Shown: piece after piece, positions 3,090-51,072 of the stretch
How positions within the stretch are numbered: the stretch's first letter is position 1
Layout of the letters: each line of letters starts with the position of its first letter
Assembly: GCF_004799665.1 (NCBI RefSeq)
Contig: NZ_CP031310.1
Location: 1,976,887 to 2,040,886 of the forward strand
Direction: 5' to 3'
Length of the DNA: 64,000 nucleotides
From: Halapricum salinum
Lineage (GTDB): Archaea; Halobacteriota; Halobacteria; Halobacteriales; Haloarculaceae
Position numbers and translations under genes: made by a program
The notes under the pieces: generated by a model
The model's database searches: none
What the model saw: the letters and a program-made list of their open reading frames with translations, nothing else
Told to the model about the DNA's origin: nothing

Positions 3090-3216
3090 TTCTCTGATGG
3101 ACGTGCTTCTCGCAGGCTAGGACACAGGGATTCTACTGCGAACAAGCAGGGAAATCCCTCCAATCGCTGGCTAGGAGACAGAGACAGCAACGTGAACTCC
3201 GCGGGAAAGCCCTCGC

Positions 3217-3297
3217 CTCGCTGGCGGTCGCTGAGCAGGATATTCTCGCTTCGCTCGAATAGAGCCTGCTCAGCGACTCCCTTTCAGCGCCAGCGAG
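3217..3297. repeat. Long interrupted hairpin, copy 1 of a shared-loop pair
   Basis: The outer arms CTCGCTGGCG (3217-3226) and CGCCAGCGAG (3288-3297) pair perfectly. The next arms, GTCGCTGAGCAGG (3227-3239) and CCTGCTCAGCGAC (3265-3277), pair for 13 bp. Ten unpaired bases lie on the right side between the two stems. The loop contains ATATTCTCGCTTCGCTCGAA, which recurs at 3655-3674. Confidence 0.85.
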
Positions 3298-3643
3298 TCT
3301 CTCCCTTTCAATCCACCAGGAACAACAACAACAGCACCGCCACCGCACAGCAGGCCTGCCCTTCCCCGGGTCGCTCAGGCGCGACTCTTGTCGCGCCACT
3401 CGCTCTCGGCCACCGCGGGGCGGTCAGGAAGCGTGTCGCGGCGTCCTGCGGAGCGAAGCGACGCAGGGCTCGCGAGAGCTTGCTCTCGCGGCGCGTCCGC
3501 GCCGCGACCGGGGAGGTGCGGGAGACGTGACCGAAGGGAACGTCTCCGAATGAACGAGCGGGGAGAGCGAGGCGCGAACGAAGTGAGGGCCTCGAATGCG
3601 AACGGCGCAGCCGTGAGCGAAGCGACCCGTGAGCGAGTGGAGT

Positions 3644-15733: not shown

Positions 15734-15903
15734 GTGTCGACGGCCGGTTCGCGAGCGCTCTCGTGCGCGAGTAGTCCAGCCGGGAGAAGCAGTGTCGACG
15801 GCCGGTTCGTGAGCGCTCTCGTGCGCGAGTAGTCCAGCCGGGAGAAGCAGTGTCGACGGCCGGCACGGCCGCGCGTTGATGCGCGGCCAGCTCAGCCGGG
15901 AGA
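15734..15903. repeat. Three 58-bp tandem units downstream of thiC
   Basis: Units begin at 15734, 15792 and 15850, each with GTGTCGACGGCCGG. The first two are nearly identical. The third keeps both ends (GTCGACGGCCGG ... CAGCCGGGAGA) but its middle is replaced by GGCCGCGC-GTTGAT-GCGCGGCC, a perfect 8-bp hairpin. The first two have TCGCGAGCGCTCTCGTGCGCGA-like imperfect hairpins there (TTCGTGA variant in unit 2). The array lies between thiC and the convergent LiaF-like gene, so it may act as a terminator array or a structured RNA. Confidence 0.85.
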
Positions 15904-15918
15904 CGTGAATTGTCTTCG

Positions 15919-23635: not shown

Positions 23636-24889
23636 GTGAATCTGGTCACGACACGTACCATTACAGCGGCACTCACCAACGACCGTGAGGGTGTCGTGTG
23701 CGACCTTGATTCGCTCGCTCGTTCCGGCAGTAAAATCTGGAACGTTGCGCGGTGGACTGCTGGCCACATCTGGGACGAAACCGGGGAAATACCCGATGAA
23801 GGACCGCTCAAGTCCTACATGAAGAACCAACCGTGCTGGAAAGATTTGAACGCCCAATCAAGTCAGGCAATCATAGAAGAATTGGCTGGCGCTTTCCAGT
23901 CCTGGTTCGAACAAGACAACTCGGACGCCAACCCACCGGGCTACCGCAAACACGGTGACGAACGGCCACGCTCGACAATCACGTTCAAAGAAGACGGCTT
24001 CAAACTCGATACAAACCACCAGCAGGTCCGACTGTCGAAAGGCAAGAACCTGAAAGACGGGTGGAGCGACTTCGTTCTTTGCGAATACGATACCGGTCCA
24101 GACGCAGACCTGACTGCTGTCGAAGACGTCCAACAGGTCCGCATCGTCTGGAACGGTGAGCAGTGGGAACTGCACTTCGTCTGCAAAGTCGCCATCGACG
24201 CCGCTGACGCGTCTGGCGAGAAGACGGCTGGTGTTGACCTCGGCATCTGTAACACGGCGGCTGTCTCTGTCGGTAACGAGACGCTGTTGTATCCGGGCAA
24301 CGCCCTGAAAGAAGACGCGCACTACTTCCGACAGGAAGAATACGACACGGAAGGTGAAAACGGTCCCAGTACCCACGCTGAGTGGGCACGCCAGAAGAAA
24401 TCACGGCGGCAGACCCACTTCCTGCACGCACTCTCGAAAGACATCGTAGAGCAATGTGCAGACCGTGGCGTGGAGACGATAGCAGTTGGACATCCGAAGG
24501 ACATCCGTGCGAATGCAGACTGGGGGCGGCACGGGAACAAGCGTCTGCACGACTGGGCGTTTGACACCGTACTGAGTCACATCGAGTACAAGGCCGAGGA
24601 ACGTGGTATCGAGGTACAGCGAGTCGATGAGTACGAGTTGGCCACGTCAATAACCTGCTGTGCGTGCGGGATGAAAGCCGAGTCGAGCCGTGTCGAGCGT
24701 GGCTTGTACGTGTGTGAGAGCTGCGAACTGGTCGCTAATAGCGACCTGAATGCGGCGGAGAATATGCGTGCGACGGTAACTCCGAATCCCTCACGGGATA
24801 GGAGTAACGGCTGTCTGGCCCAGCCATCGGTGCGCCTGTTCGACAAATCCACGGGGCGAGTCGCCCCACAAGAACAGGTCTGCCCGTAG
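23636..24889 (+). CDS. tnpB: RNA-guided endonuclease TnpB (complete)
   Basis: TnpB is the nuclease of IS200/IS605-type elements and the ancestor group of Cas12. It cuts DNA matching the guide of an omega RNA made from the element's right end. The sequence has a RuvC-I aspartate in GVDLGICNTAAV, a RuvC-II glutamate in VETIAVGHPKDI, a zinc ribbon (CCAC ... CESC) and a RuvC-III aspartate in ANSDLNAAENM, so all catalytic parts are present. GTG 23636 gives the usual VTTRTITAALTND start; TTG 23612 would add eight residues. It has 417 residues, normal for the family. There is no tnpA beside it. Confidence 0.92.
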   Translation: MNLVTTRTITAALTNDREGVVCDLDSLARSGSKIWNVARWTAGHIWDETGEIPDEGPLKSYMKNQPCWKDLNAQSSQAIIEELAGAFQSWFEQDNSDANPPGYRKHGDERPRSTITFKEDGFKLDTNHQQVRLSKGKNLKDGWSDFVLCEYDTGPDADLTAVEDVQQVRIVWNGEQWELHFVCKVAIDAADASGEKTAGVDLGICNTAAVSVGNETLLYPGNALKEDAHYFRQEEYDTEGENGPSTHAEWARQKKSRRQTHFLHALSKDIVEQCADRGVETIAVGHPKDIRANADWGRHGNKRLHDWAFDTVLSHIEYKAEERGIEVQRVDEYELATSITCCACGMKAESSRVERGLYVCESCELVANSDLNAAENMRATVTPNPSRDRSNGCLAQPSVRLFDKSTGRVAPQEQVCP

Positions 24890-24930
24890 ACCAGCAAATA
24901 TCCCAACGCTTGCGGTGCGGTTCGGGAAGC

Positions 24931-24995
24931 CTCGCCGTCGTCGGGCTACGCCCGACTGCCTGAGGGATCTTCGATCCCTCTCCGTTCACGGCGAG
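24931..24995 (+). repeat. Right-end cruciform, candidate omega RNA part
   Basis: CTCGCCGT (24931-24938) pairs with ACGGCGAG (24988-24995) and encloses two perfect hairpins: GTCGGGC-TAC-GCCCGAC (24940-24956) and GAGGGATC-TTC-GATCCCTC (24962-24980). It lies 42 bp after the tnpB stop, where omega RNA scaffolds of related elements are found. An RNA function here is inferred from position only. The same hairpin pair, with different stems, occurs at 33348-33390. Confidence 0.75.
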
Positions 24996-25006
24996 GAGGA
25001 GGTCAC

Positions 25007-25783
25007 CAGCACGCCTACCTCGAAGACGACGACTGGGAGATGACAGAATCCACGCTCTCGAAGCGTGACGGGGAGTACTATTTGCATCTCGGTTTCAGAA
25101 AGGACAAACCGCCGAAGCAGGTTGCGGTGCAAGATGACGACGAGGACAGGACAGTTCTCGGCGTTGATCTCGGCATCGTCAACATCGCCACCACCAGTAC
25201 AGCGTACTTCGCCTCCGGTAGAGAACTCCGGCACCAGCATCGAGAGTTCGAGCGGATTCGCGGCGAACTTCAGCAGACGGGGACACAGTCGGCCCATCGA
25301 ACTATGCAGCAGATGGGTGGCCGAGAGTCACGGTACGTCCGCGATCAACTGCATCAGGTTGCGAACCAGATTCTCGAAGAAGCACTCGACCATGACTGTG
25401 AGTACATCGCGTTCGAGAATCTGAAACATATCCGAGAGCGCGCGCCGCCCGTCAAAGAGTTCCACCAGTGGGCACACCGTCAACTCGTTGACCTCGTCGA
25501 GTATAAGGCCGAGGCCGAAGGCATCTGTGTGGAGTTTGTGTCACCTCGAAATACGTCGCGGCGGTGCCCTGAGTGCGGGCATACGAGTGAGGGGAACCGT
25601 GTACGGCAGGCCGAGTTCGAGTGTGAATCGTGCGGTGCGACGCAGAACGCGGATTACGTGGGTGCGAAGAATGTCGGATGGCGGTTTGTCCGCCGGGGCC
25701 TACAGTCGTCTCGGCGGACGGGTGACAGTCAACTCGCCCTGAAGTCAGGAACAGTGACGTCCTCAGGTTTCGTAGAAACCTGA
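25007..25783 (+). pseudogene. tnpB: TnpB C-terminal fragment of the outer element
   Basis: This segment continues the protein cut at 23392. It starts QHAYLEDDDWEMTE and contains RuvC-I (VLGVDLGIVNIATTS), RuvC-II (YIAFENLKHIRERA), the zinc ribbon (CPECGHTSE ... CESCG) and RuvC-III (QNADYVGAKNVG). A start at ATG 25040 could still make a 247-residue protein holding all RuvC motifs but no N-terminal RNA- and DNA-binding part. The stop codon is inside the arm of a hairpin at 25763-25783. Confidence 0.85.
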
Positions 25784-33067: not shown

Positions 33068-33200
33068 CGTCCTCGCTTCGGGTTCTGTCTCCTTGCTCTT
33101 TCTGCCGTCTCTAACCTCTTTGGAATTTGTTCGTAATGGTTGGGTCGAAATTTTGGAGACTGGCGTGTGCAGTCACGACGTCGTGTCGTGACGACTTCAC

Positions 33201-33797
33201 GCGAGGGATGAGTGAGCCGGAGGCGAGCGAATCGGCTGGGGAGGGTGTGGTGCGGTTGGAATGCTGTTGCAGTGTGGTTGCGGGTGGGGCTTTCTGGATC
33301 TGCTGAACTGTACAGGAGGCCCAGAAAGCCCCGACAGACTCGGAGTCGTCGGCGCTACGCGCCGACTGCTTGAGGGACCTCCGGTCCCTCTCTGGCTGCG
33401 ACTCGCTGCGCTCCTCGCCTCGCTACGCTCGGCGGCGGTGTCGTGCGGGCGACCCGTGAGTCGCCCGCACGGCCAGAGGGACCTTCGGTCCCTCCCTGCT
33501 TACGTCGTGGTTCGAGAGAGCGGAGCTCTCTCGTCATCACGAAAGACCTCCGGTCTTTCGGACGATCTCGCTCTCCGAGCAGGGAGGCCGGTTTCACCGG
33601 CCTCCTATAATGTGGCGGCTTCGCCGCCACGCTTGTCACCCCTTTCAGTCCCACCCACAGCAACGGCAGCCACACCCTCCTCACGGGTCGCGATGCTCCC
33701 CGTTCGTCCAGTCGGCGGCGCTCCCATCGGTCGCGCCGCCCGCTCCCCAACCGACTGCGTTGCTCGTCGCTTCGCTCCTGCGCTACTCATCCCTCGC
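33201..33797. repeat. Hairpin-rich dispersed element, copy B
   Basis: The ends are inverted: GCGAGGGATGAGT (33201-33213) and ACTCATCCCTCGC (33785-33797). Inside are GGGGCTTTCTGG/CCAGAAAGCCCC with a 23-nt loop (33286-33332) and seven perfect hairpins with 3-nt loops or one 6-nt loop: 33348-33366, 33372-33390, 33442-33471, 33476-33494, 33513-33533, 33540-33560 and 33583-33605, plus 33612-33630. The tract CCCTTTCAGTCCCACCCACA begins at 33640. No protein-coding gene is convincing. A related copy lies at 50497-50945. Confidence 0.85.
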
Positions 33798-33941
33798 GCA
33801 ATTCCGGCTCGCGACGGCACGCGAGCCAGCGCGCGCCGGGTTGACTGGTACTGAGCACAAGTACAATACAGAGTGCCCGGGCGGGCACTAGAGACCTCTC
33901 GGAAAGAGCGGCGACAACGGAACAAAGGGGATAGACAACTC

Positions 33942-50396: not shown

Positions 50397-50496
50397 CTAC
50401 GTTTCGTGTTGTGGGTCTGGGCGGCTATGGGTTGTGATTTCGTATGGAGGGATTGTGGCGTGTGCGGTCGCGAGTCTCGTCTCGCGGCGACTTCAC

Positions 50497-50945
50497 GCGA
50501 GGGACGAACGAGGGAGCATCGCGACCGAGTGAGTCGGCTGGGGAGGGCGTGGCGCGGTTGCGGTCCAGTGGGGTGGACTGAAAGGGACCGGACTCTCGAC
50601 GAACCCCGGCGACGTAAGCACTGGAGCGAGCGAAGCGAGTGAAGCGCGCAGCGAGTCGCGGGAGGCGAGAGTCCGGGGGCTTTCTGGACCTGCTGGACTG
50701 CGGAGCACAGCCAGAAAGCCCCGGCCGGCTCGAAGGCTGCGGCTCGCTGCGGTCCTCGCCTTGGGGCTGCGGTCCTTACGTCGTGGTCCGAGAGAGCAAG
50801 GCTCTCTCGTCATCACGAAAGGCGCTTGCGCCTTTCGAACGACCTCGCTCTACGAGCCGGCCGCCCCTTTCAGTCCCACCCACAGCAGGCCACGTCCTCC
50901 CCAGCCGATTCCTTCGCTCGCAGCGCTCGCTCAGTCATCCCTCGC
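50497..50945. repeat. Hairpin-rich dispersed element, copy C
   Basis: The ends GCGAGGGACGA (50497) and TCATCCCTCGC (50935-50945) are inverted with one mismatch. The next blocks, TCGGCTGGGGAGG (50534-50546) and CCTCCCCAGCCGA (50896-50908), are perfectly inverted. Inside are CCGGACTCTCG/CGAGAGTCCGG (50588-50676), GGGGCTTTCTGG/CCAGAAAGCCCC with a 23-nt loop (50676-50722), CGAGAGAGC-AAG-GCTCTCTCG (50789-50809) and CGAAAGGCGC-TT-GCGCCTTTCG (50816-50837). Order and sequence match copy B at 33201-33797. No gene is seen from 50397 to 51072. Confidence 0.85.
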
Positions 50946-51072
50946 GCGCTGCTGGCTCACCACGACCGGTTCGCCAGCACGCGCCGGATGATTAGTCTGT
51001 TCGTATTGCAGGCCAATCCGTCGCGCTTTTGGCCGCGCACACGTTGAGAAGAAACAACAGAGACGTTCCAGC

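Follow-up and report, generated by a model that had tools for sequence, protein, structure and literature searches.

A dispersed family of folded palindromic elements in haloarchaea, probably mobile and lacking a transposase of its own

MITEs are defined by a target duplication and by ends shared with a transposon, and elements of the IS200/IS605 type are moved by a Y1 transposase, an enzyme that is also tied to REPINs. REPINs themselves are inverted doublets of REP sequences (PMC3116915). The SMRs of Haloquadratum walsbyi, 80-110 bp long, occur as near-identical copies, and the PATEs of Haloquadratum, of which terminal-only forms have been described, have no inverted ends, carry palindromes near both ends and are related to the ends of IS605 (PMC3119063). 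Palindromes inside palindromes are found in the organelle DNA of Volvox, where elaborate elements of up to 633 nt lie in non-coding DNA (PMC2670323). Here, we compare with these systems two hairpin-rich elements, B and C, found in a 64,000-nucleotide stretch of the Halapricum salinum genome (NZ_CP031310.1, positions 1,976,887-2,040,886; hereafter, the window).

An earlier, sequence-only reading of the window had described B and C as two copies of one element with inverted ends, a 12-bp stem with a 23-nt loop, a tandem hairpin pair and several other words in common. All of the named words are found in both copies in the claimed order, and the relationship goes well beyond simple GC-rich words: B and C match at 103 bits in blastn (E=1.7e-26, 64% identity over the long match), compared with 31.1 bits for the best of 200 dinucleotide shuffles of C. 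The inverted ends are present as well, but both copies had been drawn too short, and homology extends outward on both sides to the limits given in Table 1; the right ends of B and C have the consensus GCCAGC(G/A)CGCGCC, which can pair with the left GGCGTGTGC when G.T wobble is included. The 12-bp stem and its loop exist, not as a separate hairpin but as the junction of two inverted units, and the tandem hairpin pair, present in both copies, is a nested insert. When folded as single-stranded DNA and compared with shuffles, B scores z=-11.8 and C scores z=-7.9. Copy B lies downstream of an Lrp/AsnC regulator gene and upstream of a gene from an unassigned family; C separates two divergent genes, one encoding a small multidrug-resistance protein and the other a radical-SAM enzyme. 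In what follows, E denotes the end hairpin up to GTGTGG, U the segment from GGGACTGAAAGGGG to GGGGCTTTC, and E plus U one half of the element; C retains both of its U units, and the left U of B is almost wholly deleted.

Table 1. Extent and parts of copies B and C (positions in the window)
Feature	Position	Strand	Basis
Copy B, full extent: E-type ends, degenerate U, loop, heavily nested reverse U	33162-33837	+	End repeat GGCGTGTGC...GCCAGCGCGCGCC in the sequence, common to H. salinum copies
Left E unit of B: end hairpin, GAGGGATGA, TCGGCTGGGGAGG	33162-33250	+	Sequence, E-unit comparison
GGGGCTTTCTGG/CCAGAAAGCCCC stem with 23-nt loop: meeting point of inverted units	33286-33332	.	Same junction in L036, L037, L044, L045, L047, L049, L050
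Unit U of B, swollen by several nested palindromes (CCAGAAAGCCCC...CCCCTTTCAGTCCCACC)	33321-33655	-	Sequence; limits from H. salinum copies
Second nested double hairpin in B (GTGCGGGCGACCCGTGAGTCGCCCGCAC-GGCCAG-AGGGACCTTCGGTCCCT)	33443-33494	.	Similar double hairpins in L032, L037, L046, L049
Nested hairpin pair in B: IS605-type (TnpB) element end, terminal-only form	33508-33565	+	Same pair around TnpB at G000:1209473 (L415), after tnpB in L104 and L106
Right E unit of B	33672-33837	-	Sequence, H. salinum comparison
Copy C, full extent: E-U-loop-reverse U-reverse E, inverted dimer	50457-50985	+	Outer ends GGCGTGTGC...GCCAGCACGCGCC; sequence, H. salinum comparison, blastn, folding
Left E unit of C	50457-50551	+	Sequence, E-unit comparison
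Sense unit U of C	50574-50684	+	Covariance model R1, 120.1 bits, E=2.4e-22; the sequence is itself part of the model alignment
Second unit U of C, split by nested hairpin pair	50714-50877	-	R1, 52.3 bits, E=3.7e-8
Nested hairpin pair in C, same element as in B	50784-50842	+	Sequence; TnpB flanks; filled/unfilled U in L250/L244
Right E unit of C	50886-50985	-	Sequence, H. salinum comparison

B and C are not the only copies. A DNA search of the H. salinum genome gave 57 matches clustering into many loci, and the 23 loci read include at least 13 full or near-full copies, B and C among them, plus several partial ones, with inverted ends GGCGCGCGCTGGC. Their parts always come in the same sequence (end repeat, small end hairpin, GAGGGATGA, TCGGCTGGGGAGGGTGTGG, GGTGGGACTGAAAGGGG, variable stem-loop, GGGGCTTTCTGG, loop, then everything reversed); since the second half is the first half in reverse, the element is an inverted dimer. 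The E-U block measures ∼260 nt in the lineage of the window and U alone ∼111 nt. Single E-U units occur in other genera (L084, L085, L094 and L098), where a commoner form consists of two inverted U around a small hairpin, ∼260 bp in all, running from GAAAGCCCC to GGGGCTTTC and with inverted ends ACAGCCAGAAAGCCCC. The form seen in the window and this U doublet correspond to a single four-way junction, opened at one arm in the former and at another in the latter; element sizes across the forms range from 260 to 680 bp. A different member of the superfamily, of the GGATTGAAAGGG...GAGGGCTTTC type, stands at 3180-3600 in the window (weak match to the U model at 3205-3315, minus strand) and is followed by a CAGGCCTGCCCTTCCCCGGGTCG unit, which adjoins U in genome G016; this member is perhaps the copy A of the sequence-only reading.

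Smaller palindromes are nested in the copies. The hairpin pair nested in B and C also brackets a TnpB gene of H. salinum (L415, G000:1209473) and follows tnpB in two other genomes (L104 and L106), with Pfam confirming the OrfB_IS605 and TNB domains. At locus L250, a 60-nt hairpin pair sits inside a U, and L244 has the same U without the insert; double hairpins like the one at 33443-33494 recur in several H. salinum copies. The unusual density of hairpins that had been pointed out in B and C is thus real and amounts to layered palindromes, being accounted for by inverted dimers of folded units together with smaller palindromic elements nested in them.

Other small palindromes were seen in and near the elements. 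A ∼52-nt palindromic insert occupies the same spot, GGTGGGACTGA/GACTGAAAGGGG, between direct GACTGA repeats in L035, L044 and L050 (5' arm) and in L036 (3' arm). DNA mini-hairpins in which tandem G.A pairs flank a GNA triloop are stable, and GAGCGNAGCGAG-like words, which are very common throughout the elements (e.g., at 50620-50650 in C), might fold into mini-hairpins of this kind. At 15734-15907 in the window, just after a gene, there are three tandem copies of a 58-nt sequence, the third of which has a different, still self-complementary inner stem (GGCCGCGC..GCGCGGCC, where the other two have GCGAG/CTCG arms); these copies may thus follow the same pattern of pairing kept through sequence change that is described for U below.

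The family extends far beyond H. salinum. Relatives of the element are present in 35 of 39 nearby genomes, and, within the order Halobacteriales, a covariance model of U finds the unit in 60 of 77 genera (188 of 243 genomes; with 15 candidates scored per genome, copy numbers are lower bounds). When an exact 18-mer was scanned against public genomes of 84,980 species, the matches listed were all from haloarchaea, and there was no match among IMG/VR viral contigs. No description of the family was found by motif or topic in the literature searched, a search outside which most subscription papers fall; apparently, this is an uncatalogued family of non-coding mobile DNA present in most salt-loving archaea.

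The sequence-only reading had proposed a presence/absence comparison between strains; made between congeneric species, such a comparison shows the doublet family to be polymorphic. Three species of one genus have the doublet at the L131 site and four lack it; at the L140 site, six species of another genus have it and six lack it. Such clean empty sites are available for the doublet, not for the E-U dimer. At a third site (L124), a sister species carries a trimmed remnant and other congeners carry no copy. For B, C and L045, no copy lies beside the conserved neighbor gene where that gene is found in congeners (five congeners in the case of B and C); synteny is broken on the opposite flank, and a search of the genus for clean empty sites of these three copies gave none. 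Presence and absence at such sites are compatible with loss as well as with gain. The elements also turn over in place: the interior of L131 matches those of L194 and L195 at 213-226 bits on the minus strand compared with 95-105 bits on the plus strand, and at the L140 site the interiors of L244 and L250 are inverted relative to those of L245 and L251, L140 siding with the latter (L245/L250: 299 bits on the minus strand versus 45 on the plus strand), with the flanks unmoved at both sites. In-place inversion of this kind could come about through ordinary recombination between the short inverted ends.

These comparisons bear on the idea, raised in the sequence-only reading, that the element is a fixed structural feature serving chromosome packaging, insulation or, as one might add, bidirectional termination. 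The palindromes are very stable, and 8 of 16 H. salinum copies lie between convergent gene pairs. However, C separates divergent genes and B lies upstream of a gene, doublets in other genera are found chiefly in tandem or divergent spacers, and a role at fixed positions is unsupported, since species of one genus have their copies at different places; we consider a structural role highly improbable. The copies are intergenic (0 of 45 located copies, and 0 of 80 copies in the named genomes, lie inside a predicted gene).

Pairing within the units is kept while their sequences change. In 100 aligned U units, changes on both sides are seen at 31 of 34 pairs, amounting to 762 such cells compared with 216 in shuffles, and 96.7% of the cells are paired compared with 31-45% when the two sides are slid against each other; it should be kept in mind that fitting the alignment to the model biases these counts in favor of structure, and that the copies are related, making p-values only a guide. 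The 13-bp main stem of U has 89 distinct sequences in the 100 units, and its cells comprise 1215 Watson-Crick, 27 G.T (∼2%) and 10 A.C pairs. Over all pairs of U, 97 G.T stand against 22 A.C, with one single pair supplying 40 of the G.T; for the E end hairpin, the tally over 54 distinct copies is 272 Watson-Crick, 49 G.T and 3 A.C pairs. The bias of G.T over A.C singles out one strand as the folded form and may reflect an RNA, single-stranded DNA or C-to-T change on an exposed strand. Compensatory change over 89 stems, together with a favored strand, speaks for a folded single strand under selection across an entire order.

U and E-U might be read as multiply copied, sometimes inverted genes for a structured non-coding RNA, with selection acting on the RNA and not on the DNA. 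The strong covariation, the conserved internal loops, the conservation of the unit across the order and a G.T count far above A.C on the E-U strand (15% of the pairs in the E end hairpin, as expected of G.U in RNA) would all suit such genes. Against this, the ∼2% of G.T in the main U stem is low for an RNA, the G.T excess can also arise from C-to-T change on an often single-stranded strand, most copies are inverted doublets in which each transcript would be both sense and antisense, copies are missing or inverted at orthologous sites, and Rfam 15 gives no match above its gathering score (mir-like matches below that score were dismissed as chance stem-loops). On balance, RNA genes seem an unlikely explanation.

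The MITE-like mobility suggested by the layout is partly borne out. The family is dispersed, non-coding, bounded by inverted ends and polymorphic at two sites; neither a clear target duplication nor, in the loci and IS families covered, ends shared with a transposon were found, and the copies are less alike than those of a MITE, their stems differing in sequence while still pairing. If the elements were ordinary MITEs whose DDE transposon has escaped detection, the hairpins would be a by-product of the inverted ends, and the inverted ends, small size, intergenic location and polymorphism would be explained. Yet no clear target duplication can be made out at the L140 and L131 empty sites (at L140, both flanks have a weak match to YTGTTYA), the loci read include no autonomous copy sharing these ends, and the internal stems vary between copies while remaining paired, which ordinary MITEs do not need; we regard a DDE origin as rather unlikely. 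CTAG is a rare tetranucleotide in these genomes and is strongly overrepresented at a distance of 40-60 nt from U, where 16 of 71 flanks have it and <1 would be expected; it was rejected as a target duplication because it also stands in an empty site (L249) and hence belongs to the host flank. In the cases checked, CTAG lies ∼45 nt upstream of start codons, often within a palindrome (e.g., in the flanks of L129, L140, L099 and L090).

No enzyme travels visibly with the family. Beside 80 copies there is no recurrent gene family or transposase, and an adjacent transposase was rejected as the mover; no E-U structure surrounds the eight TnpB genes of the H. salinum genome, a comparison that covers part of the IS families. 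In the window itself, two TnpB (OrfB_IS605) genes at about 24173-25432 (G000:2001059 and 2002016) have no E or U nearby. The copies might still be non-autonomous IS200/IS605 derivatives, similar to PATEs or REPINs and moved by a Y1 transposase: hairpins lie near both ends, no target duplication is seen, the inverted doublets are REPIN-like and the nested part truly derives from IS605. However, unlike PATEs, the element is bounded by inverted ends, and the Y1 transposase (PF01797) has 0 matches in the H. salinum genome, which leads us to reject it as the mover; it is also absent from G160, G025 and G029 despite their many U, and present in G002 and G165, which have no U. Only a decayed Y1 gene or past activity would rescue an IS200/IS605 origin, which is thereby weakened and, in our judgment, very unlikely.

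The family is real, widespread and mobile on the species scale, a variant of non-autonomous palindromic mobile DNA; it is dispersed, differs in presence between species, inverts, takes up nested insertions and keeps its pairing through change. B and C are probably members of such a dispersed non-coding palindromic family, dependent on structure, without a transposase of its own and relying on a mover that acts in trans. Its building block would be the folded U, in which the motifs form an unchanging frame and the stem varies in sequence but is always complementary, arranged in inverted doublets able to fold into a four-way junction; in the lineage of the window, two E-U units would stand head to head, making the whole element one branched palindrome. 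The family would spread among intergenic sites and be lost or trimmed there, turn over in situ between the short inverted ends and serve as a landing place for smaller palindromes such as IS605-type TnpB ends and double hairpins. We infer that mobility requires a folded single-stranded form and that the enzyme acting in trans is something other than the Y1 transposase, which the genome lacks; for the host, there is likely no benefit, the element being tolerated outside genes and core promoters. A bolder version, which we put forward tentatively, is that these elements form a class defined by folded shape, in which cloverleaf stems are exchanged and yet re-paired and in which movement and inversion proceed via single-stranded DNA or RNA through an enzyme new to such elements. 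The family offers one explanation for much puzzling hairpin-rich intergenic DNA in haloarchaea, with a covariance model to annotate it, and its in-place inversion and its polymorphism between species open the mover to testing in laboratory haloarchaea.

Of the described systems, REPINs resemble the family in their extragenic location, the pairing of palindromic units into inverted doublets around a spacer, the hairpin or clover fold, the many copies and the lack of an enzyme of their own (PMC3116915), but U is far longer than REPs, its varying stems stay paired, the host is an archaeon and the REPIN-tied RAYT, a Y1 transposase, is missing from the H. salinum genome. With SMRs, the family shares a haloarchaeal host, inverted ends unrelated to known transposons, no visible target duplication, nesting among palindromes and an unexplained mode of movement (PMC3119063); it differs in being larger, modular and divergent, and in mainly receiving insertions rather than invading. 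The nested pair in B and C corresponds to PATEs in that it is the terminal-only remains of an IS605-type TnpB element (PMC3119063), whereas the whole element around it has inverted ends and only the pair is IS605-like. The Volvox repeats are also layered palindromes in non-coding DNA (PMC2670323) but are short, simple hairpins of algal organelles, for which no conserved multi-motif unit with covarying stems has been described (PMC2670323). MITEs are likewise short, non-coding, dispersed and polymorphic, with terminal inverted repeats, but copies of the present element share their fold more than their sequence and come with neither a clear target duplication nor a known parental transposon. The family works most like REPINs and SMRs/MITEs, without being a proven member of any of these classes.
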